A DNA stretch of 64,000 nt from Candidatus Polarisedimenticolaceae bacterium (GCA_036275915.1 DASUCV010000018.1:186001-250000); one strand, 5' to 3'. Positions 35,136 to 45,852 are shown, counted from the stretch's first letter. Numbers and translations: made by a program. Notes: generated by a model not told the origin, from the letters alone.

Positions 35136-35164
35136 TTGACGCTCCCGAAGGTGGCGGTTATAGT
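35136..35164 (+). promoter_or_regulatory. Sigma-70 promoter for the dksA-like gene
   Basis: TTGACG (35136-35141) and TATAGT (35159-35164) are separated by exactly 17 bases. The predicted start near 35171 leaves a leader of about 43 bases before the ATG at 35214. Both hexamers are near consensus in otherwise GC-rich sequence. Confidence 0.7.
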
Positions 35165-35213
35165 GGCGGGCTTTCGCCGGAGCGATTCGCTCGGCGTGTT
35201 TCGAGGTTTCCTG

Positions 35214-36068
35214 ATGAAAGCGAAGCCTTCGAAGGTCAAGACGGCCCCCGCCAAGGCGGGGAAGGTCATGGCGAAGAAAGTGGCACCCGCGAAACCCGCC
35301 GCCCTCAAGGCGGCTCCGAAGAAAGCGGCCGCGCCGAAGGCGCCGGTCAAGCCCGTCGCCGCGAAAGCCTCGGCGAAGCCGGTCGTGAAGGCAGGCGCCA
35401 AGGGCGCGCCGGTCAAGCCGCCGGCGAAGGTCGCCGGGAAGATCGTGCCGAAGATCGCGGTCAAGGTCCCGAAATTCGGCTCGAAGAAAGAGGCTGCCGC
35501 CCCGGCCGAGGCGCCGAGGGCCCCGATCCGCCGCATCCCGAAGCCCGCCTCCGTGGCGGCGCGTCGCAAAGAGGCGGCACACTTCCGCGAGATCCTGCTC
35601 CGGAAGCGGCAGCAGCTCATGCACGCCTACTCGATCAGCAAGGGCGATTCCCAATCGGACCTCGACAACGGCACCGAGGACTACGTCGACTACGCGGTCA
35701 ACTCCTACGCGCGCGAGTTCCTCCTCTCGCTCACCGAGCTCGACCGCAAGCAGCTCCTCATGGTCGAGGAGGCGTTGAACCGGATCGACCGCGGCGAGTT
35801 CGGTTACTGCCAGCAGTGCGGCGAGGAGATCAACAAGAAGCGACTCGAGGTGCAGCCCTGGGCGCGGCACTGCGTGCGCTGCCAGGAGCTCGAGGAGAAG
35901 GGCATCCTGCCGCAGTACCCGACCGCCGGCGGCGAGGACGAGGAGTTCGCAGAGGAGCCGGAAGAGGCCGCGCCGGCCGAGGAAGAGGCCGAGGCCGAGG
36001 CGGAGGTCGAGGACGACGCGCTCGAGGACGAGCCGCTCGTCGTGGACGGCGACGACTCCGAAGAGTAG
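35214..36068 (+). CDS. dksA: DksA/TraR-type transcription factor with histone H1-like N-terminal arm
   Basis: A 284-residue protein from ATG 35214. Residues 1-105 are Lys/Ala/Pro-rich repeats of the PAKPAALKAAPKKAA type, like the C-terminal tails of histone H1 or AlgP. The DksA core follows: a coiled coil whose tip carries the DxxDxA motif as D156, D159 and A161 (EDYVDYAVNSYAREF), and a zinc finger with C199-X2-C202 and C220-X2-C223. The last 50 residues are almost all Glu, Asp and Ala. DksA enters the RNA polymerase secondary channel and works with ppGpp. The basic arm should bind nucleic acid, and the acidic tail could mask it. It has its own promoter. Confidence 0.88.
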   Translation: MKAKPSKVKTAPAKAGKVMAKKVAPAKPAALKAAPKKAAAPKAPVKPVAAKASAKPVVKAGAKGAPVKPPAKVAGKIVPKIAVKVPKFGSKKEAAAPAEAPRAPIRRIPKPASVAARRKEAAHFREILLRKRQQLMHAYSISKGDSQSDLDNGTEDYVDYAVNSYAREFLLSLTELDRKQLLMVEEALNRIDRGEFGYCQQCGEEINKKRLEVQPWARHCVRCQELEEKGILPQYPTAGGEDEEFAEEPEEAAPAEEEAEAEAEVEDDALEDEPLVVDGDDSEE

Positions 36069-36074
36069 GGCCTC

Positions 36075-37250
36075 ATGACGGCGCCCGCGGTCACGCTGCA
36101 CCCGCGCGGTGTCCGGCGCCTCACCACCCGCCATCCCTGGATCTTCGCCGACGACGTCCGCTCGGCGGACGGCGCGGCCCACGGCGACGTCGTGCGGCTC
36201 GCCGATTCCCAGGGGCGCGGGCTCGGCTACGGGTTCTTCTCCTCGCGCTCCAAGATCACGCTACGCGTTCTCACCCTCGAGGACGCGCTCCCGGACGTGA
36301 CGTTCTTCGCGCGCCGGATCGACCTCGCCTTGGCACGGCGCGCGGCGCTCGAGCGGTGGGAGGCCCGGCGCCTCCTCTTCGCGGAGAGCGACGGGATCCC
36401 GGGCTTCATCGCCGACATCTACGGGACGCACCTCGTCGTCCAGGCGACGACCGCCGCCACCGAGCGTCTCCTCCCGTCGCTGGTCGCGCTGCTCAGGGAG
36501 CGCCTCCCGATCGACTCGGCGCTCGCGCGAAACGATGCCTCGGTCCGGCGCCTCGAAGGCCTCGGTCGCGAGGTCGTGCCGGTCTTCGGCACGACGCCGG
36601 AGCGCGTCGTCGTCGGCGAGGGCGCGATCCGCTATGCGGCGGACCCCTGGCGCGGACAGAAGACGGGGGCGTTCCTCGATCAGCGCGAGAATCGTCTGGT
36701 GTGCGGAACCCACGCCAAGGGGCGGGTCCTCGATGCGTTCTCCTACCACGGCTCGTTCGCGCTCCACGCGGCCCGCGCCGCCCGGGAAGTCGTCGCGGTC
36801 GACGCGTCGGCCGACGCGCTCGCGCGGGGGCGCGAGAACGCACGGGAGAACGGCCTGACGAACGTGACCTTCGTCGAGGGGAACGTCTTCGACGACCTGC
36901 GCGCGCGCGCCGACCGCGGCGAGCGTTTCGATCTCGTGCTCCTGGACCCGCCCGCCTTCGCCAAGAGCCGCGTCGACGTGCCGGCCGCGCGTCGCGGCTA
37001 CAAGGATGTCAACCTCCGCGGATTCCGCGTCCTGGCGCCGGGCGGCGTGCTCATGACCTCGTCGTGCTCGTACCACATGGACGAGACCGAGTTCGAGCAC
37101 GTCGTCCGCGACGCGGCGGCGGACGCCGGACGCGACGTCGTCGTTCTCGAGCGGCGCGGCCAGGCCGCCGATCACCCCGTGCGGCTCGCGTTCCCCGAGA
37201 GCCGCTATCTCAAGTGTCTCGTGCTGCGGGACGCGGGGGCCGCACCTTGA
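36075..37250 (+). CDS. rlmI: Class I SAM-dependent 23S rRNA methyltransferase, RlmI-like
   Basis: A 391-residue enzyme, ATG at 36075, six bases after dksA. An N-terminal PUA domain begins LHPRGVRRLTTRHPWIFADDV (about 8-28). The catalytic Rossmann domain has DQRENR (about 201-206), VLDAFSYHGSFALHAARA (about 217-234), DPPAFAKSR (about 294-302) and the active-site cysteine region MTSSCSYHM (about 330-338). RlmI methylates C1962 of E. coli 23S rRNA. The site in this organism is inferred. Its stop overlaps the TTG of the giant envelope gene. Confidence 0.9.
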   Translation: MTAPAVTLHPRGVRRLTTRHPWIFADDVRSADGAAHGDVVRLADSQGRGLGYGFFSSRSKITLRVLTLEDALPDVTFFARRIDLALARRAALERWEARRLLFAESDGIPGFIADIYGTHLVVQATTAATERLLPSLVALLRERLPIDSALARNDASVRRLEGLGREVVPVFGTTPERVVVGEGAIRYAADPWRGQKTGAFLDQRENRLVCGTHAKGRVLDAFSYHGSFALHAARAAREVVAVDASADALARGRENARENGLTNVTFVEGNVFDDLRARADRGERFDLVLLDPPAFAKSRVDVPAARRGYKDVNLRGFRVLAPGGVLMTSSCSYHMDETEFEHVVRDAAADAGRDVVVLERRGQAADHPVRLAFPESRYLKCLVLRDAGAAP

Positions 37251-40200
37251 GGCGTTTCGCCGCCCTCGCGGTCGCGGCGCTCGCCGCGGCCGGACCTTCA
37301 CTCGCGGCGCAAGACGACGCGCCGGAGCGCTCCGCGTCGTGGCTGCAACGCCGCCTCGAAGCGGGGCTCGAGAAGGCGCTCGGTGGAACGGTCCGCATCG
37401 GCCGCATGGACGTCGATTGGACCGGGCTTTCCGCCGACGTCGGCGACGTCGCGATCGAGATCCCCGCGGAAGGCGCGCCGCCTCTCACGGCGACGATCGC
37501 ATCGGGTCGCATCCGTCTCGCGTGGGAAGGGCTCGCCGGGATCGCCGGCGGCCGCATCCACATCTCGGACGTCGAGGCGAAGGGGGCGACGTTCTCTCTG
37601 AGCCGTGCGTGGATCGACGCGTGGCGCCCCAAGCCCGGCCCCGAGAAGGCGGGGGTCGAGGTCCGCATCGACCGCCTCACCGTCTCGGGCGCCACGGCGG
37701 TCTATGCCGACGAGGGCGTGCACACGATCGTCCGCGCGACCGACCTGAGCTTGAAAGGCGACTGGTCGACCGCGCGGCGCTCGCTCGTCGCGGAGGCGAC
37801 CACCCAGGCGACGGTCGAGGCGCCGTTCTTCAAGGTGCCGTGGACCGCGAGCGTCCGAAGCGGGCTCAGGCTCGGTCCCGGCCGCCTGGAGATCACCGGC
37901 GCGACCGCCGAGGGACCCGGCGTCTCGGGCGAGCTTCGAGGCAACGTGACGTGGGGAGCGGGGACGTCGTTCACCGCGGAAGGGCGCGTCGACGCCGAGC
38001 TGGCCCGGCTGCTCCCGTCGCTCACCGGGCCTCACGGGCTCGCGGGACACGCGACCGGTCCGTTCCAGATCGTCTTCGTCGGCGGAGCGCCGATCAAGGT
38101 GGCGCTCCAGGCGCAGACGACCGGCTTCGCGGTCGGCCCGGTGACGACGGCGAGCGCGGCCGCCTCCCTCACGCTCCGGCCGGGTCGCCTCGACGTCGAG
38201 GCGATCGACGCGCGCGCGTACGGCGGGCGGTTCACCGGCACCGTCGGGCTCGCGTTCGGGCAGGCGACGACCCTGACGCTCGACGTCGCGGGCAAGGGCG
38301 CCGACGCCGGCGCCGTGACCGCGCTCACCGGAAAGACGCTGCCTCTCGCCGCGGCAACCGACCTGACCTTGGCGCTCAGCGGCGATCCGGGAAGGATCGC
38401 GTCGTGGGTGGGCCGCGGCACCTTCCAGGCGTCGCCGCTGAAGGGCCCCGGAACGCGCGTGCCGGTCGGCGGGAAGGGCACGCTCGAATTCGCCTCGGGC
38501 CGCGTGACGCTCGCGAGCGGCAACCTCGTCTCCGGCCCCTCGTCGTTCGCGCTGTCGCTCGTCTCCGAGCTCGGCCTGTCGCCGGCGACGACCCATCTCG
38601 AGGTGTCGGGGACGACGGACGACGGGGCCGCGACCCAGCAGGACGTGATCCGGATCCTGGAGGCGCTCGGCGTGGGGGCCAACCGCATCGTCAGGGAGCC
38701 GGTCGCGGGAGCGGGAAGCTTCCGCACGGACGTCCGTTCGGGCGCGTCGACCCAATTCGGCCTCGGGCTCGATCTCGTCAACGGCTCGTGGTCGGGCGAG
38801 CCGTTCGATCACGCCGTCCTCGATCTCGCCGTCGACCCGAAGCAGATCGCGATCTCCCGCCTCACGGTCGAGCGGGGCCAGGAGCGGGCCGACGGCCACC
38901 TCCGGTTCGACGCGGCGACGGGGCATCTCGCCGAGGCCGCCATCAAGGCGAGCGGCGTGTCGATCGCGGCCGTGGCGCGGCGGTTCGGCCTCACGGTCCC
39001 CGTCTCGGGACGGCTCGCGCTCGACGTTGCCGGCGACATGATCGACGGGGCCTTCGCCGCGCAGGGGACGCTGCACGCCGAGGGGATCATCGTGGGGAAC
39101 GAGATCTTCGACACGGTCGACGCGCCGTTCGTCGTGGAGAACGGGATCGCGCATCTCGATCCCGTCACGGTCGTGAGCCACGGTCTCGAGGGGCGACTGC
39201 GCGTGGCCTACGACCTCGACGCCGCGCGCGCCGACGTCGACGTCCTCGAGGCGACGCTCGACCTCGCGTCGAGCCGCTCGCTCGCCGAGGCGGGACTCGT
39301 CGCGCAGGGCACGCTCCGCGCGCGCGGTCCGCTCTCGATCGGACGCGACGGGCCGTCGGGTTTCCTGACGGTGAGCGCGAACGAGTTCGTCCTCGACACG
39401 CGCAAGACCGGCGTGCGCGAGCTGAGGCTCGGCGACTTCTCCGGTGGCGCCGAGCTCGCGCCCTCCGGGCTGACGCTCGCCGTGGCGGCCGATCCCGAGC
39501 CGGTGTGGACGTTCGAGAGTGTCCTCGGCTGGTCGTCGGCGCTGCCGGTCTCCGCGGTCCTCTACTTCGACGACCTCACGGTCGGCGCGGGGGGGGCGTT
39601 CGGAGAGAGCGCGGATCTGCGCCTCAAAGGGCAGATCCAGGCGGACGGGGAGCTGACCTCGCCGAAGGCGCTCGAGGTCAACGGGGCGTTCGACGATGTG
39701 GCGGTGCGGGTCGGGCCGACGACCTTGAGGTCGGTCGCGGCATTCCCCCTCAAACTCGACAGCGGTCAGTTCGTCCTGGGCCCCAGCCGCTTCGAGGGGG
39801 AAGGCGCCAGCCTGAATCTCTCGGCGCAGGGGTCGGTCGAAGGCGGCGCCTTCTCCGCGCGCCTGGAAGGGCGGCTCGATCTCGCGATCGTGTCGTCGTT
39901 CTTGTCGGACCTGCGCGGTGCGGGACCGATGACGATCGACGCGACCGTGGGCGGCACGTTCGATCGCCCGGATCTGCGGGGGCGCGTCCTCGTCGAGGAC
40001 GGCCGCGTGCGGCTCATCGGTTATCCCCAGTCGCTCGAGCACATCGACGCCGAGGCGATCTTCGAAGGCCAGACCCTCCGCCTCGGCAACTTCCACGCGG
40101 CTCTCGGTGGGGGCGAGATCACCGCCACGGGGACGACGACGTTCACCGGGCTGACCCCGTCGTCCTACGAGGCGACGTTCGAGGTCGCGAACGTCAGCGC

Positions 40201-43200
40201 CACCTTTCCCGAAGGGTTCAAGGGGACCTACCAAGGGCGGGTGAAGGTCGCGGGCGCCCGCCGCGGGGCGAACGTCACGGGCCGCATCGAGGTCGTCCGC
40301 GGACTCTACGCGCGCGAGTTCGACCTCTCGTTCACGTCGGCGTCGCACCGCGAGTTCGGCGAGGCCGGCGAATCGCGCTTCCCGCGGAACATCTTCCTCG
40401 ATGTCGACGTCGTCGCTCCGGGAAACGTCTGGATCCGCAACGACATCGCCAAGCTCGAGATCGAGGGAAGCCTTCACGTCGGCGGCGAGGTGGCGCGGCC
40501 GGAGATGACGGGGAGGATCTCGCTCGTTCCCGGCGGGACGATCCGGTACCGCGACGTCGACTACCGCCTGGAGTACGGCACGCTCGACCTCACCGACACC
40601 CGCCGGATCAACCCCTACGTCGACATCCTCGGCACCACGCGCGTCGGCGAGTACAACGTGACGCTGCACGTCGAGGGGACGGCCGACAAGTTCGAGTACG
40701 AGCTGACCTCGCTTCCGCCGTTGTCGTCCCAGGACATCATCTCGCTGCTCGTCACGGGGAAGACCCTCGACGCGATCAATGCCTCGGGCGCCGCCGCGGC
40801 GCTGCCGACCGACATGGCGGCGTACTACTTCGCCGGCCTCTTGACCGAGACGTTCGGGCACACGATCCAGAGCTCGCTGGGGATCGACCAGTTCGCGATC
40901 ACGCCTCTCCTCCTCAAGGGCGAAGGCGACCCGACCGCGCGCGTGACCGTGGGCAAGCGCGTCAGCGACAAGGTCAAGGTCATCTTCTCCCAGGACATCG
41001 GAACGGCGCAGAAACAGACCTACCAGATCGTCACCGACGTGACGCGCCGCGTGCGGCTCATCGCCGAGAGCGACAGCGAGTCGGGCCTCGGCGGCGAGGT
41101 CCAGTATTCCCAGCAGTTCGGGGGTGCGCCGCGGACGAAGGACGCGGTCAAGGCCTCCGAGAGTGCGCTCCCTCCGGGGCCGATCGGGTCTGTCGCCGTC
41201 GTTCCGACCGACGGGCCCGCGCGCCCCGATCTGGCGAAGCGATCGAAGCTGAAAGCGGGCAAGCCGTTCGACCGCGCGAAGATGCTCGAGGGCGGCGACC
41301 GGATCCGGGCGGCGCTCGTGAAGGAGGGCTTCGTGCAATCGGACGTGCGCTCGGAGCCCGGACGCGACGAGACGACCGGCGTCTACAACGTCGTCTATCA
41401 CATCACCCCCGGTCCTCGGGTCGTCGTCCAGGTCGTCACACCCGACCACAAGAAGGAGAAGTCGATCCGGAAGAAGCTGCGCGCGTTCTGGCGGGAGACG
41501 CCCTACACCCCCGACATCTGGGACGAGGCGTCGAAGGCGCTCCTGGACGACCTCCAGGGGGACGGCTACTACGCGACCGACATCGCGTGGCACGCGATCG
41601 ACACCGCGGCCGGCCGCACGGTGAGGTTCAACGTCGATCGAGGGAAGCCGGTACGCCTTCGCTCCCTCACGTTCGACGGCGTGACCTCTCTTCCTCTCTC
41701 ACGGATCGAGTCGCAGATGGAGTCGCTCCGGAAGAAGAGCCTGACGAAGCGTCTCTTGCGCCCCGAGGTCCTCACGCAAGATGTGGGAACCGTTCGCGCC
41801 CTCTACCGCGACGAAGGGTTCGTGCAGGTCCGCGTGGCACTGCCGCAGATCACGCTCGCGGCGACCGGCGATGCCGCCGACGTCCGCATCGCGGTCGACG
41901 AGGGCACGCGGTTCAGCGTGGGCGAGATTGCGTTCCAGGGCGACGCTCCGTACGGCGACGACATCCTCACGGAGTGGTCGCCGCTCAAGGCGGGCACGAC
42001 CTTCTCGCCGCGCCGCCTCGCCGTGGCGGAGCAGGCGCTGCACGACAAGCTCGACGAGCGGGGTTACCCCGACGCGACCGTCGACTCCGGGGTCGTCCTG
42101 GGCGCGGATCGGGCCGACGTGTCGTTCGACCTCGGTGCCGAGGGGAAGAAGACCGTCGGCGCGGTCGTCTTCGAAGGCAACAAGGTGACGAAGCACCGCA
42201 CGATGGCGAAGGCGCTCACCTTCGGTGAGGGCGACCCGGTCTCGCGGAACGCGCTCCTCAAGACGCAGCAGAACCTCTACCGGACCGGTTTGTTCTCCTC
42301 GGTGAAGCTGACCTTCGAGCCGCTGCCGGGCGAGGACCCGTCGCTCCAGGAGGTCCGCGTGCGGGTCGAGGAGGCACCGCCGTGGAGCATGGGGTTCGGC
42401 CTCGGCTACGACTCCCAGGACGGCCCGCGCGCGAGCTTCCTGCTCGGCTATTCGAACCTGGGCGGGCGCAACGTCGGCGTCGCGTTCCAGGGCCTGGCGA
42501 GCCCGAACGACAGCCGCGCGCAGGTCACCGTCCGTCACCGGCGCGTCTTCCACAACTCGATCGATTCGCTCGGCTCGCTGCTGTGGGAGCGCACCGTGCA
42601 GGACGCGTTCACCGAGTGGCGGAACTCAGCGTCGGTCCGCCTCGAGCGCCGTCCGTCGCCGCGGTGGATCCAGTACATCCGTTACACGATCGAGGATGTC
42701 CGGATCGGAAACGATCCCGACGCGGTGGCGGCGATCGACGAGATCTTCGCCGACAAGCTCTCCGCGATCCGCCTCGGGAGCTTCGGGCTCGGGATCGTCC
42801 GCGATTCGCGGGACGACGCCTTCTCGACGACGCGCGGAGCCTACGGCTCGATCGAGACGAGCGTCTTCGCGCGTCCGCTCGGCTCGCAAGCGTCGTTCGC
42901 GACCCTCTTCCTCCGGGGCTCGTGGACCAAGAGCTTCCGCAACGGGACCCGCTTCGCGACCTTCCTCCGGATCGGCGCCGAGCAGCCGTTCGGGGACACC
43001 GACCTCGTCCCCCTGTCCGAGCGATACTTCGCCGGCGGCGCCTCCACGATGCGCGGCTTCTCCCTCGACTCGGTCGGCGGGCTCCACTTCTGCCTGGTGT
43101 CGAACCCGCCCGCCCCTGAGACCGTCGTGCAGTGCCAAGGGAACGATCCCAACGTGCGGTCGTTCAACGCCGGTGGCGAGGCCCTTCTGCTCGTCAACGA

Positions 43201-43435
43201 GGAATACCACTTCCCGTTGTGGAAGGCGCTCCACGGCGAGGTCTTCCTCGACGTCGGCAACGTCTACCCGACGATCTCCGACTTCGATCCGACCGACGTG
43301 CGCTCCGACGCCGGGCTCGGCCTCAGGCTCGACACCCCGATCGGGCCGATCCGGGTCGAATACGGATGGAAGCTCGATCGCCGCGAAGGCGAGAGCCCCG
43401 GCGAATTCGTGTTCGCGATCGGATTGCTGTTCTAG
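37247..43435 (+). CDS. TamB-like/Omp85 fusion: AsmA-type repeats, DUF490, five POTRA domains and outer-membrane barrel
   Basis: A single open frame of 2062 residues from TTG 37247 (TTGA overlap) to TAG 43435. Residues 1-22 form a signal peptide or anchor (RRFAALAVAALAAAGPSLAA). Residues about 25-950 are AsmA/TamB-type beta-helical repeats. About 950-1290 is the DUF490 domain, including ELTSLPPLSSQDIISLLVTG. About 1314-1710 holds five POTRA-like repeats. Residues 1711-2062 are a 16-strand-type Omp85 barrel with the conserved loop motif MRGF (R1936) and a terminal aromatic strand ending AIGLLF. In E. coli, TamB (inner membrane) and TamA (outer membrane) are separate proteins. Here DUF490 runs directly into the POTRAs. 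It likely builds outer-membrane proteins or carries lipids across the periplasm. Confidence 0.88.
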   Translation: MRRFAALAVAALAAAGPSLAAQDDAPERSASWLQRRLEAGLEKALGGTVRIGRMDVDWTGLSADVGDVAIEIPAEGAPPLTATIASGRIRLAWEGLAGIAGGRIHISDVEAKGATFSLSRAWIDAWRPKPGPEKAGVEVRIDRLTVSGATAVYADEGVHTIVRATDLSLKGDWSTARRSLVAEATTQATVEAPFFKVPWTASVRSGLRLGPGRLEITGATAEGPGVSGELRGNVTWGAGTSFTAEGRVDAELARLLPSLTGPHGLAGHATGPFQIVFVGGAPIKVALQAQTTGFAVGPVTTASAAASLTLRPGRLDVEAIDARAYGGRFTGTVGLAFGQATTLTLDVAGKGADAGAVTALTGKTLPLAAATDLTLALSGDPGRIASWVGRGTFQASPLKGPGTRVPVGGKGTLEFASGRVTLASGNLVSGPSSFALSLVSELGLSPATTHLEVSGTTDDGAATQQDVIRILEALGVGANRIVREPVAGAGSFRTDVRSGASTQFGLGLDLVNGSWSGEPFDHAVLDLAVDPKQIAISRLTVERGQERADGHLRFDAATGHLAEAAIKASGVSIAAVARRFGLTVPVSGRLALDVAGDMIDGAFAAQGTLHAEGIIVGNEIFDTVDAPFVVENGIAHLDPVTVVSHGLEGRLRVAYDLDAARADVDVLEATLDLASSRSLAEAGLVAQGTLRARGPLSIGRDGPSGFLTVSANEFVLDTRKTGVRELRLGDFSGGAELAPSGLTLAVAADPEPVWTFESVLGWSSALPVSAVLYFDDLTVGAGGAFGESADLRLKGQIQADGELTSPKALEVNGAFDDVAVRVGPTTLRSVAAFPLKLDSGQFVLGPSRFEGEGASLNLSAQGSVEGGAFSARLEGRLDLAIVSSFLSDLRGAGPMTIDATVGGTFDRPDLRGRVLVEDGRVRLIGYPQSLEHIDAEAIFEGQTLRLGNFHAALGGGEITATGTTTFTGLTPSSYEATFEVANVSATFPEGFKGTYQGRVKVAGARRGANVTGRIEVVRGLYAREFDLSFTSASHREFGEAGESRFPRNIFLDVDVVAPGNVWIRNDIAKLEIEGSLHVGGEVARPEMTGRISLVPGGTIRYRDVDYRLEYGTLDLTDTRRINPYVDILGTTRVGEYNVTLHVEGTADKFEYELTSLPPLSSQDIISLLVTGKTLDAINASGAAAALPTDMAAYYFAGLLTETFGHTIQSSLGIDQFAITPLLLKGEGDPTARVTVGKRVSDKVKVIFSQDIGTAQKQTYQIVTDVTRRVRLIAESDSESGLGGEVQYSQQFGGAPRTKDAVKASESALPPGPIGSVAVVPTDGPARPDLAKRSKLKAGKPFDRAKMLEGGDRIRAALVKEGFVQSDVRSEPGRDETTGVYNVVYHITPGPRVVVQVVTPDHKKEKSIRKKLRAFWRETPYTPDIWDEASKALLDDLQGDGYYATDIAWHAIDTAAGRTVRFNVDRGKPVRLRSLTFDGVTSLPLSRIESQMESLRKKSLTKRLLRPEVLTQDVGTVRALYRDEGFVQVRVALPQITLAATGDAADVRIAVDEGTRFSVGEIAFQGDAPYGDDILTEWSPLKAGTTFSPRRLAVAEQALHDKLDERGYPDATVDSGVVLGADRADVSFDLGAEGKKTVGAVVFEGNKVTKHRTMAKALTFGEGDPVSRNALLKTQQNLYRTGLFSSVKLTFEPLPGEDPSLQEVRVRVEEAPPWSMGFGLGYDSQDGPRASFLLGYSNLGGRNVGVAFQGLASPNDSRAQVTVRHRRVFHNSIDSLGSLLWERTVQDAFTEWRNSASVRLERRPSPRWIQYIRYTIEDVRIGNDPDAVAAIDEIFADKLSAIRLGSFGLGIVRDSRDDAFSTTRGAYGSIETSVFARPLGSQASFATLFLRGSWTKSFRNGTRFATFLRIGAEQPFGDTDLVPLSERYFAGGASTMRGFSLDSVGGLHFCLVSNPPAPETVVQCQGNDPNVRSFNAGGEALLLVNEEYHFPLWKALHGEVFLDVGNVYPTISDFDPTDVRSDAGLGLRLDTPIGPIRVEYGWKLDRREGESPGEFVFAIGLLF

Positions 43436-43533: not shown

Positions 43534-43893
43534 TCAGGCCAATGAGAATCTCAGGTTCGTGCGATGGGGCCGCAGCGAGGCGCGGAGTTTGTCCTTCGCC
43601 TCGCGCTCGAGCTGGCGGACCCGCTCGCGGCTCAGGTTGAGGTTCTTCCCGATCTCTTCGAGCGTCTGCTCCTGACCGCCGAGGAGACCGAACCGGTTGC
43701 GGATGATGTGGAGCTCACGCTCGTCGAGACGGTCGAGCGCACGATGGACGAGCGCGCCGACCTCTTGGTTGTAGATTCGCTCTTCCTGGCTTTCGGAGTT
43801 GGGATCGGCCAGGAGCGTCGCGAGACGACACTCTTCATCGCGGTCGACGTAATCGTCGATCGAGAGCTCTTTCTGCAGCAGCGGGAAGATCAT
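43534..43893 (-). CDS. Stand-alone sigma-70 region 3.2-4 protein
   Basis: A 119-residue protein from ATG 43893, with AAGGAG 6 bases upstream. Residues about 11-40 match the sigma region 3.2 linker, 45-70 region 4.1 (ALDRLDERELHIIRNRFGLLG at about 54-74) and 75-105 region 4.2 with the helix-turn-helix LEEIGKNLNLSRERVRQLE. Regions 1, 2 and 3.0, which bind core polymerase and melt the -10 element, are absent. The upstream minus-strand frame stays open to 44031 but shows no sigma-like sequence. It could be a remnant of an RpoS/RpoH-type factor or a working partner protein that supplies only -35 recognition. The Shine-Dalgarno site and intact frame favour expression. Confidence 0.75.
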   Translation of the reverse strand: MIFPLLQKELSIDDYVDRDEECRLATLLADPNSESQEERIYNQEVGALVHRALDRLDERELHIIRNRFGLLGGQEQTLEEIGKNLNLSRERVRQLEREAKDKLRASLRPHRTNLRFSLA

Positions 43894-44142
43894 CTCGGTC
43901 TCCTTCGCGACCCCTCGCAATCCCTTAAAGCAACTCGTGTGCCGGATGCGAATCCGTGTGCCGCCGGTTGCTGCAAAGGCGCGGCAGACCGTTTTTCCCC
44001 GTCGTGGCGCGTCGAATCGTGTAAGTCGCACGTTACGTTCGACTCCTCCGCTTCGATGGGGATTACGGCCCTTTCGGCGTCATGCTGCCTACCTGGCGTT
44101 CGGCTTGTCGGCCCCATGCAAGAATGGCGCGCCGGAGGCCGC
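43894..44142. other. Divergent intergenic region, sigma-4 gene / mutL
   Basis: About 250 bases between the minus-strand sigma-type gene and mutL. It has lower GC than the flanks and contains short AT-rich patches (for example CCCTTAAAGC and a run of five T at 43992-43996). I find no -35/-10 pair with good spacing in either direction and no convincing small gene, although the region presumably holds both promoters. Confidence 0.4.
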
Positions 44143-45852
44143 TTGGGCACGATTCGCGTTCTCGACGACCAGCTCGCCAATCGGATCGCCGCCGGCGAGG
44201 TCGTCGAGCGGCCGGCTTCGGTCGTCAAGGAGCTCGTCGAGAACGCGCTCGACGCGCGGGCAACCCGCATCGACATCGTCCTCGAGGACGGCGGCCGGCG
44301 GCGCATCGTCGTCGCCGACGACGGGATCGGGATGGACCGCGACGATGCGCTCCTCGCGCTCGAGCGTCACGCCACGAGCAAGCTCCGGCGCTTCGAGGAC
44401 TTGGACGCGATCGCGACGCTCGGCTTCCGAGGGGAAGCGCTGCCGAGCATCGCCTCCGTCAGCCGGATGCTCCTCCGGACCGCGGCGGTGGACGGCGAGG
44501 GCACAGAGATCGAGGTGCGCGGGGGACGGATCGCGTCGGTCGACGGGCACGCACGCGCGCGGGGAACGACGATCGAGATCGGCGGGCTCTTCTTCAACGT
44601 CCCGGCCCGCCGGAAGTTCCTCCGGGCCGCGGCGACCGAGCTCGCGCACGCCGCGCGGATCGTCGGCCAGCTCGCGCTCGCGCACCCGCAGGTCCGGTTC
44701 CGCCTCGAGCACGGCGGGCGGGCGGTGCTCGACGCGCCGTCCGCATCGAGCCTCGACGAGAGGGCGGCGCAGGTGCTCGGGCGCGAGAGGACGGCGTCGT
44801 TCGTTCCGTTCGAAACGCGCCCCGGAATGCTCCGTGTCTTCGGGCTCGCCGGCCGGCCGGTCGATGCCACGCCGCGGCGGGACACGCAGTATTTCTTCGT
44901 GAACGGCCGGCCCGTCGCCGACCGGACCCTCGCGCATGCGGTCACATCCGCCTTCGGGCAGACGGTGGCGCGCGGCCTCCATCCGGCGGCCGTGCTCTTC
45001 GTCGAGGTCGAGCCGTCCCGCGTCGACGTGAACGTGCACCCGCAGAAGACCGAGGTCCGCTTCGCCCGCGCGTCCGAGATCCACGACGCGGTCCGGGACG
45101 CAGTCGTCTCGGCGCTCGCGAAGGAAGGGGTCGTCCCGACGTACGCCGAGCTGCGCACGTCGTCGTCAGCGGTGGGCTCGGTCGCCGTCCTCGAGCCGCC
45201 GCGTGTCTGGTCCGCCCCGCCGGCCGCGGAGCGAAGCTTCCTCGACGACGACGGCCCCGCCGCCGAGCCCGGCCGCGTCGCCGTGCCTCTCGCGCAGTAC
45301 CGCGACTCCTACATCGTGGCGCAGGACGCGCAGGGGCTCGTCCTCGTCGATCAGCACGTCGCGCACGAGCGGGTCCTCTACGAGCGTTACCTCGACGACG
45401 CCGAGCGTGGCGAGGTCGCGGTCCAGCGCCTGCTGTTTCCGAAGACGATCGACCTCACCCCCGAGGAGGCGGCGATTCTCGAGGGCGAGTCTCCCGAGCT
45501 CGTGCGGCTCGGCTTTCCTCACGAGCCGTTCGGCGATCGCGCGGTGAAGCTCGACGGTGTCCCGGCATTCGCCAAGGACGTCGCGCCGGAGCGGCTGTTT
45601 CGTTCGCTCATCGGGGAGGCGGCCCGCACGAAGACCGCGGCGACCGGCGATCCGGATCTCAGGCGGCGCCTGGTGACCTCCGCCGCCTGTCAGGCCGCGA
45701 TCAAGGTCAACTACCCCCTGACGAGGGAGGGGATGCAGCGTCTTCTGGACGATCTGTTCAAGACGCAGAATCCGACGACATGCCCGCACGGACGCCCCAT
45801 TTTGTTCCGTTTGACCCTCGAGGAGATCGAGCGGGCGTTCCGGCGCCGTTGA
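44143..45852 (+). CDS. mutL: DNA mismatch repair protein MutL, endonuclease type
   Basis: A 569-residue MutL. TTG 44143 is preferred because GGAGG lies 5 bases upstream and it gives the standard N terminus (GTIRVLDDQLANRIAAGEVV); ATG 44116 is the alternative. The GHKL ATPase has ELVENALDA, VADDGIGM and FRGEALPSIASV (about 96-107). The dimerisation domain carries the endonuclease metal site DQHVAHERVLYE starting at D403 (the canonical motif is DQHAX2EX4E, here with Val for Ala), an AACQAAIK block and CPHGRP at about 547. It would nick the daughter strand, as in bacteria that lack MutH. No mutS is nearby. Confidence 0.94.
   Translation: MGTIRVLDDQLANRIAAGEVVERPASVVKELVENALDARATRIDIVLEDGGRRRIVVADDGIGMDRDDALLALERHATSKLRRFEDLDAIATLGFRGEALPSIASVSRMLLRTAAVDGEGTEIEVRGGRIASVDGHARARGTTIEIGGLFFNVPARRKFLRAAATELAHAARIVGQLALAHPQVRFRLEHGGRAVLDAPSASSLDERAAQVLGRERTASFVPFETRPGMLRVFGLAGRPVDATPRRDTQYFFVNGRPVADRTLAHAVTSAFGQTVARGLHPAAVLFVEVEPSRVDVNVHPQKTEVRFARASEIHDAVRDAVVSALAKEGVVPTYAELRTSSSAVGSVAVLEPPRVWSAPPAAERSFLDDDGPAAEPGRVAVPLAQYRDSYIVAQDAQGLVLVDQHVAHERVLYERYLDDAERGEVAVQRLLFPKTIDLTPEEAAILEGESPELVRLGFPHEPFGDRAVKLDGVPAFAKDVAPERLFRSLIGEAARTKTAATGDPDLRRRLVTSAACQAAIKVNYPLTREGMQRLLDDLFKTQNPTTCPHGRPILFRLTLEEIERAFRRR

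Follow-up and report, generated by a model that had tools for sequence, protein, structure and literature searches.

Nearly all outer-membrane-bearing bacteria possess TamB, but TamA is confined for the most part to Proteobacteria. Whether TamB has a partnership with five-POTRA Omp85 proteins outside the TamA lineages was left open in 2015 (PMC4494059), and the only biochemical test of such a pair in the open-access literature searched used Borreliella and Salmonella domains (PMC11361582). The locus described here places this question within one gene: in a 64,000-nucleotide stretch of DNA from a Candidatus Polarisedimenticolaceae bacterium (the window), a first-pass annotation read a TamB-like protein and an Omp85 protein as joined in one polypeptide. 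Is the join genuine, is its barrel half a BamA or a TamA, how often has it arisen, and what would a peptide link between the two halves mean for the TAM?

Domain architecture of the fusion protein

The frame is uninterrupted from a TTG codon, which overlaps the stop codon of the upstream methyltransferase gene, to its stop (Table 1); translation could alternatively begin at an in-frame GTG at 37214. In order, the chain comprises TamB (DUF490), a linker some 20 residues long, five POTRA domains and an Omp85 barrel of 16 strands. A Pfam scan matches DUF490, POTRA and Omp85 in this frame, and the proposal that TamB, five POTRAs and Omp85 lie in one chain is borne out by the frame itself, by Pfam, by the AlphaFold2 model and by relatives. 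No stop or frameshift is present between 41110 and 41190, where the first-pass annotation had placed its possible refutation, and independent genomes carry the junction in frame too.

Table 1. Features of the TamB-Omp85 fusion locus (positions in the window; residues of the fusion protein).
Feature	Position	Strand	Basis or remark
DksA/TraR zinc finger protein	35136..36068	+	conserved synteny
PUA + SAM-dependent methyltransferase (RlmI-like)	36075..37250	+	overlaps fusion start; conserved synteny
TamB-Omp85 fusion CDS	37247..43435	+	2062 aa; TTG start; homologous frames in relatives
N-terminal hydrophobic segment FAALAVAALAAAGPSLAAQ	37256..37312	+	signal peptide or signal anchor; hydropathy scan
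AsmA/TamB-type repeat region, residues 25-950	37319..40096	+	almost all beta strand (beta-taco groove); AlphaFold2
TamB/DUF490 domain PF04357, residues 951-1291	40097..41119	+	complete to last profile position; Pfam
Former TamB C-terminal strand LGGEVQYSQQF, residues 1281-1291	41087..41119	+	beta-signal-like end, now internal
Linker, residues 1292-1311	41120..41179	+	predicted disordered; AlphaFold2 and profile gaps
POTRA 1, residues 1312-1387	41180..41407	+	model secondary structure and structure comparison
POTRA 2, residues 1392-1464	41420..41638	+	model and structure comparison
POTRA 3, residues 1470-1551	41654..41899	+	model and structure comparison
POTRA 4, residues 1557-1630	41915..42136	+	Pfam, model and structure comparison
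POTRA 5, residues 1636-1709	42152..42373	+	model and structure comparison
Omp85 beta-barrel, 16 predicted strands, ends GEFVFAIGLLF (beta-signal-like)	42386..43432	+	Pfam, model and structure comparison
Sigma-70 region 4-only gene, downstream, convergent	43534..44031	-	conserved synteny
mutL, downstream	44095..45852	+	conserved synteny

The PF04357 match has an E-value of 4.7e-43, covers profile positions 5-381 of 381 and scores 148.3 bits against a curated Pfam cut-off of 22.4. The fusion scores far below the cut-off of the NCBIfam equivalog model for TamB. The AlphaFold2 model of the N-half (residues 1-1010; six input sequences, pTM 0.49) is nearly all beta strand with a mean pLDDT of 78.7. 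Its nearest solved folds in a Foldseek search are ApoB100 and LptD, both of which are lipid-binding extended beta sheets; no TamAB chains are among the matches listed for this half, an absence that carries no evidence. The TamB part ends with YSQQF at residues 1287-1291, an OMP-like last strand whose homologue in separate TamBs forms the free end.

The C-part (residues 863-2062) was modelled from seven sequences, those of the window protein and six relatives, with a mean pLDDT of 67.9 and a pTM of 0.40. In the model, residues 1312-1709 form five POTRA-like units, and 16 barrel strands lie past residue 1714. The five POTRAs of the first-pass annotation are thus seen in the model, whereas Pfam alone passes four stretches (PF07244, E 1.3e-34); Omp85 is matched at residues 1737-2061 (PF01103, E 6.6e-36). 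Local folds are confident, but the placement of TamB relative to the POTRAs is of low confidence in these models (pTM 0.40 and 0.49). The pLDDT is about 30 in the linker and about 30-55 over the linker and the TamB C-terminal strands together. Fold prediction had been suggested to reveal whether DUF490 and POTRA1 form a continuous groove: the parts fold locally, but a continuous groove is not seen with confidence.

A probable grouping of the barrel half with TamA

The best structural match of the C-part is BamA (Foldseek E 3e-40), and residues 449-1198 of the model align with the E. coli BamA barrel and all five POTRAs with a Z-score of about 20. The sequence scores 279.2 with the NCBIfam BamA equivalog TIGR03303, slightly under the cut-off of 297.15, and 118.5 with the TamA equivalog model against a cut-off of 625. 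In the Omp85 tree, the BamA of the host genome (L002) and 12 BamAs of the class group with E. coli BamA, and the fusion stands apart; its Omp85 half and the Omp85 partners of separate TamBs group with E. coli TamA. The split between BamA and the rest has an SH-aLRT of 93, with E. coli TamA on a long branch. We therefore place the Omp85 half with TamA and not with BamA, with moderate confidence. Accordingly, the first-pass remark that five POTRAs match BamA and not the three of TamA stands for the count in the model and fails for BamA identity, given the separate BamA and the tree position. The TamA-side placement would fit the proposal that an extra acidobacterial copy of BamA gave rise to TamA (PMC4494059). 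A role of the fused Omp85 half as a replacement for BamA is rejected by the genome's own BamA.

Host genome and gene neighbourhood

The host genome is 4.5 Mb in size and 98% complete. Besides the fusion it encodes one other Omp85 protein, in a frame of 887 residues. A search for separate bamA and tamB genes, which had been proposed as a check, found a canonical BamA elsewhere in the genome and no second TamB, the fusion being its only PF04357 protein. LptD and two more frames with AsmA-family matches are also present.

The fusion lies in a conserved setting of DksA-like, RlmI-like, fusion, sigma-region-4 and MutL genes, which is found across the order and partly in two more families. This conserved synteny implies that the fusion has been inherited vertically, and it rejects a recent horizontal import. 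The neighbours are housekeeping genes, and no substrate or lipid-transport gene adjoins the fusion. At its N-terminus the DksA/TraR protein carries a histone-H1-like tail that is rich in Lys, Ala and Pro and more than 100 residues long. The convergent sigma-70 region 4-only protein has 165 residues, is conserved at 49-65% identity beside the fusion in related genomes and is possibly a small transcription regulator.

Distribution and repeated origins of the fusion

Matches to the fusion protein were found in 39 of 41 near genomes, mostly as a single frame of 2029-2441 residues at 28-38% identity. Across 21 distant rows the alignment varied too much to give patterns, and seven closer rows gave a usable one. 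Ca. Polarisedimenticola svalbardensis and Acidobacteria bacterium Mor1 are the relatives with names, and they place the group in the class Ca. Polarisedimenticolia of the Acidobacteriota.

Among 26 class genomes that are at least 90% complete, 23 have a PF04357 match, and at least 21 of these 23 carry the TamB-POTRA junction in one frame; 19 of these frames reach 2000 aa or more, and those of G020 and G023 are shorter. The exceptions are G026, in which the junction falls at contig ends, and G029, in which the frame is broken. In the latter (G029:C305), a stop lies between the TamB and Omp85 parts, which may reflect re-separation, a pseudogene or a sequence error. In 22 of the 23 genomes the fusion has no other PF04357 protein beside it; G027 alone adds an unfused TamB.

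A junction-region profile was run over 197 Acidobacteriota genomes, followed by domain checks on the fetched loci. Outside the class, fused TamB-POTRA-barrel frames are present in at least 27 of 174 genomes, so that the survey of related genomes called for at the first pass finds the same fusion beyond the window's own class. A separate TamB accompanies the fusion in many of these genomes, and usually a separate Omp85 frame comes immediately after it on its strand; some pairs are reversed. In one such pair (L119, G054:C214, 5177-11959) the TamB and Omp85 frames are in phase with a single TGA between them; it is apparently one codon away from a fusion. Three genomes carry two fused TamB-Omp85 paralogues each, G175 (L089/L106), G179 (L084/L100) and G196 (L099/L102), and G175 and G196 have a separate TamB-Omp85 pair besides.

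The tree of the TamB half and that of the Omp85 half give the same groups, and this agreement between the trees of fused and separate halves indicates that the two halves have been inherited vertically together. One clade (SH-aLRT 98 in the Omp85 tree) unites the class fusions with the fused paralogues of other classes, and two more fusions, in families f33 and f20, nest inside separate pairs. A constraint that holds all fusions together is rejected (p-AU 3.7e-15), and with it a single origin. By these trees, the fusion arose at least three times, always as TamB then Omp85, in one old main clade and two younger ones. The independently arisen fusions of family f33 (L097 and L114) have longer linkers and apparently extra POTRA-like repeats. 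Because fusion arose at least three times in one phylum in the same order, the trees provide strong evidence for an obligate 1:1 partnership of the TamB and Omp85 halves.

A probable TAM in one polypeptide

Because all parts of TamAB exist in the fusion chain, a covalent 1:1 TAM is, by analogy, the natural reading. We consider it probable (roughly 0.6) that the fusion is a TAM with its TamB-like and TamA-like halves in one polypeptide, likely acting as an inner-to-outer-membrane bridge for lipid and for OMP assembly. Sec would export the chain, the N-terminus would stay at the inner membrane (in most relatives through an anchor), and BamA would insert the barrel into the outer membrane. Between the membranes, the hydrophobic groove would carry phospholipid outward and the POTRA/barrel end would help OMP insertion, both as in two-chain TamAB, and the covalent link would set a 1:1 stoichiometry and permanent docking. 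Since the genome also encodes other AsmA-like proteins, the fusion need not be the only lipid bridge.

In the cryo-EM structure of E. coli TamAB, TamB meets POTRA1 with the end of its repeat groove and POTRA2 with a coupling loop, and its last strand runs into the barrel, where it pairs with the first barrel strand; phospholipid is thought to move along the TamB groove (PMC12800296). The first-pass view that the peptide link simply replaces a contact between DUF490 and POTRA1 is contradicted by this structure, in which the last TamB strand reaches the barrel. Because the TamB end, at the barrel in E. coli, is tied back to POTRA1 in the fusion, the link would constrain the hybrid barrel, a point missing from the first-pass reading. 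The last TamB strand would be tethered to POTRA1 by a stretch of about 20 residues, which by simple extension could span no more than about 70 Å. A hybrid of TamB strand and barrel would then form within the chain only with the POTRA arm curled back, or in the barrel of a neighbour, or the state would be unused. More tentatively, and at less than even odds, the fusion could be a permanent, covalently closed bridge from the inner to the outer membrane that works without the hybrid of TamB strand and barrel or with an inter-molecular one, and hence a mechanistically distinct form of TAM that evolved repeatedly.

The inner-membrane end of the one-polypeptide TAM was judged by a simple hydropathy scan. 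Almost every complete fusion starts with a clear hydrophobic anchor in which no cleavage site is evident, most complete relatives reach a mean N-terminal Kyte-Doolittle hydropathy of 2.1 to 3.4, and separate TamBs also have clear N-terminal anchors. In most of the fusion group, one chain is likely to span both membranes. The window protein does have the hydrophobic segment that had been read as a signal peptide or anchor, but the segment is ambiguous, being Ala-rich and weaker (mean 1.58) than the anchors of the relatives, and it ends in an AxA-like site. The sole same-family relative has an Ala-rich segment with an AxA-like site as well (mean 1.42). It is uncertain whether the window protein spans both membranes; its own N-terminus may be cleaved, and the inner-membrane end would then be freed. 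These two weak segments favour an arrangement in the window's family in which the signal is cleaved and the TamB groove, lacking an inner-membrane anchor, is suspended from the barrel. We regard this arrangement as doubtful, given the clear anchors of nearly all other complete fusions and of separate TamBs and the frequency of Ala-rich anchors in high-GC genomes; equally doubtful is the contact that it would entail, in which the groove would meet the inner membrane only transiently or via a partner.

Several other Acidobacteriota genomes keep a separate pair together with at least one fused copy, which suggests a division of labour, and the TAM helps to insert some autotransporters (PMC12800296, PMC4494059). 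The fusion might then be a specialised device for OMP assembly or secretion, a fused paralogue that serves particular substrates and not a general phospholipid bridge. This is unlikely: because the fusion is almost always the only TamB in the window's class, it must cover the general TamB role there, and no adjoining gene encodes a substrate.

The linker bears on whether the chain stays in one piece. The profile gap between TamB and POTRA1 is 18 residues in the window fusion, which is also the median of 51 fusions; it is 10-30 residues in most main-clade fusions and longer in the young ones (45, 68 and 124). At the alignment column where fusions continue into the linker, 28 separate TamBs stop. 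This terminal column is aromatic in 25 of the 28 separate TamBs, in 14 of 21 class fusions, in 19 of 29 other main-clade fusions and in all three young fusions; where it is non-aromatic in the main clade, the residue is mostly Leu or Ile. If a periplasmic protease cut the disordered linker, the product would be an ordinary two-chain TAM with its parts in equal amounts. A short, predicted disordered linker of variable sequence and length would suit such a cut, as would a TamB end kept nearly as in free TamB, aromatic residue included, as if it were still to become free. We nevertheless hold processing to be quite unlikely: no conserved cleavage motif is visible in the fusion linkers, linkers of 10-15 residues between folded parts leave scant room for a protease, and the end residue is non-aromatic in about a third of main-clade fusions, as would be expected once it has ceased to be a free C-terminus.

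An artefact, in which an error removed a stop or frameshifted two genes into one, could arise from one base change where adjacent genes are ordered TamB then Omp85, as the relative with a single stop between the two frames illustrates, but it is dismissed because in the survey of relatives dozens of independent assemblies, spread over many families with identities of 28-38%, show the junction in frame, and the short linker is conserved among them.

The interest of the one-polypeptide TAM lies in its repeated origin, and it makes both the TamB-Omp85 partnership and the hybrid-barrel step testable. As the sole TamB in nearly the whole class, it allows the partnership question to be addressed by deleting one gene, and having the TAM in one chain could make this fragile trans-envelope complex easier to study structurally. 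As the fusion leaves no free TamB end, the protein is a natural test of the hybrid-barrel mechanism (PMC12800296).

Comparison with known systems

The fusion resembles the E. coli TAM in the length of its TamB part (about 1291 vs 1259 aa), in DUF490 and the OMP-like last strand, and in a 16-stranded Omp85 barrel, which groups with TamA at moderate support. However, it is one polypeptide and not two non-covalently docked proteins that sit one in each membrane and help to build the outer membrane, its TamB end is internal, TamB comes first whereas tamA precedes tamB in E. coli, and the model has five POTRAs instead of the three of TamA. With BamA (TIGR03303) it shares the five modelled POTRAs and the 16-stranded barrel, but it falls under the equivalog cut-off, groups away from BamA and coexists with a BamA of the same genome. 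In chloroplasts, TIC236, a TamB homologue, is joined functionally to the POTRAs of the Omp85 protein TOC75 across two membranes; these are two proteins, and they serve protein import.

In the same phylum, Heinz et al. (2015) described a second-copy BamA of Acidobacteria that is in an operon with TamB and branches with TamA (PMC4494059). The separate TamB-Omp85 pairs found here are probably these second-copy BamA-TamB operons, which likewise combine an extra Omp85 with TamB; unlike the fusion, they are reported as separate genes in the order BamA-TamB, and no fusion is mentioned there. In the spirochaete Borreliella, DUF490 binds the POTRAs of a five-POTRA Omp85 without TamA, but the proteins are separate and the partner is the only, canonical BamA (PMC11361582). 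No described TamB-Omp85 fusion was found in the open-access literature searched. For a single-chain trans-envelope bridge there is one precedent, the long MlaD of Veillonella parvula, a single polypeptide with an inner-membrane anchor and an outer-membrane barrel that is proposed to be a lipid bridge (PMC10665443). It differs from the fusion in having an MCE domain, of which a Pfam scan (E up to 0.1) found none in the fusion, and in its small barrel, hexameric state and proposed retrograde traffic (PMC10665443). The two single-chain proteins are thus built from unrelated parts.
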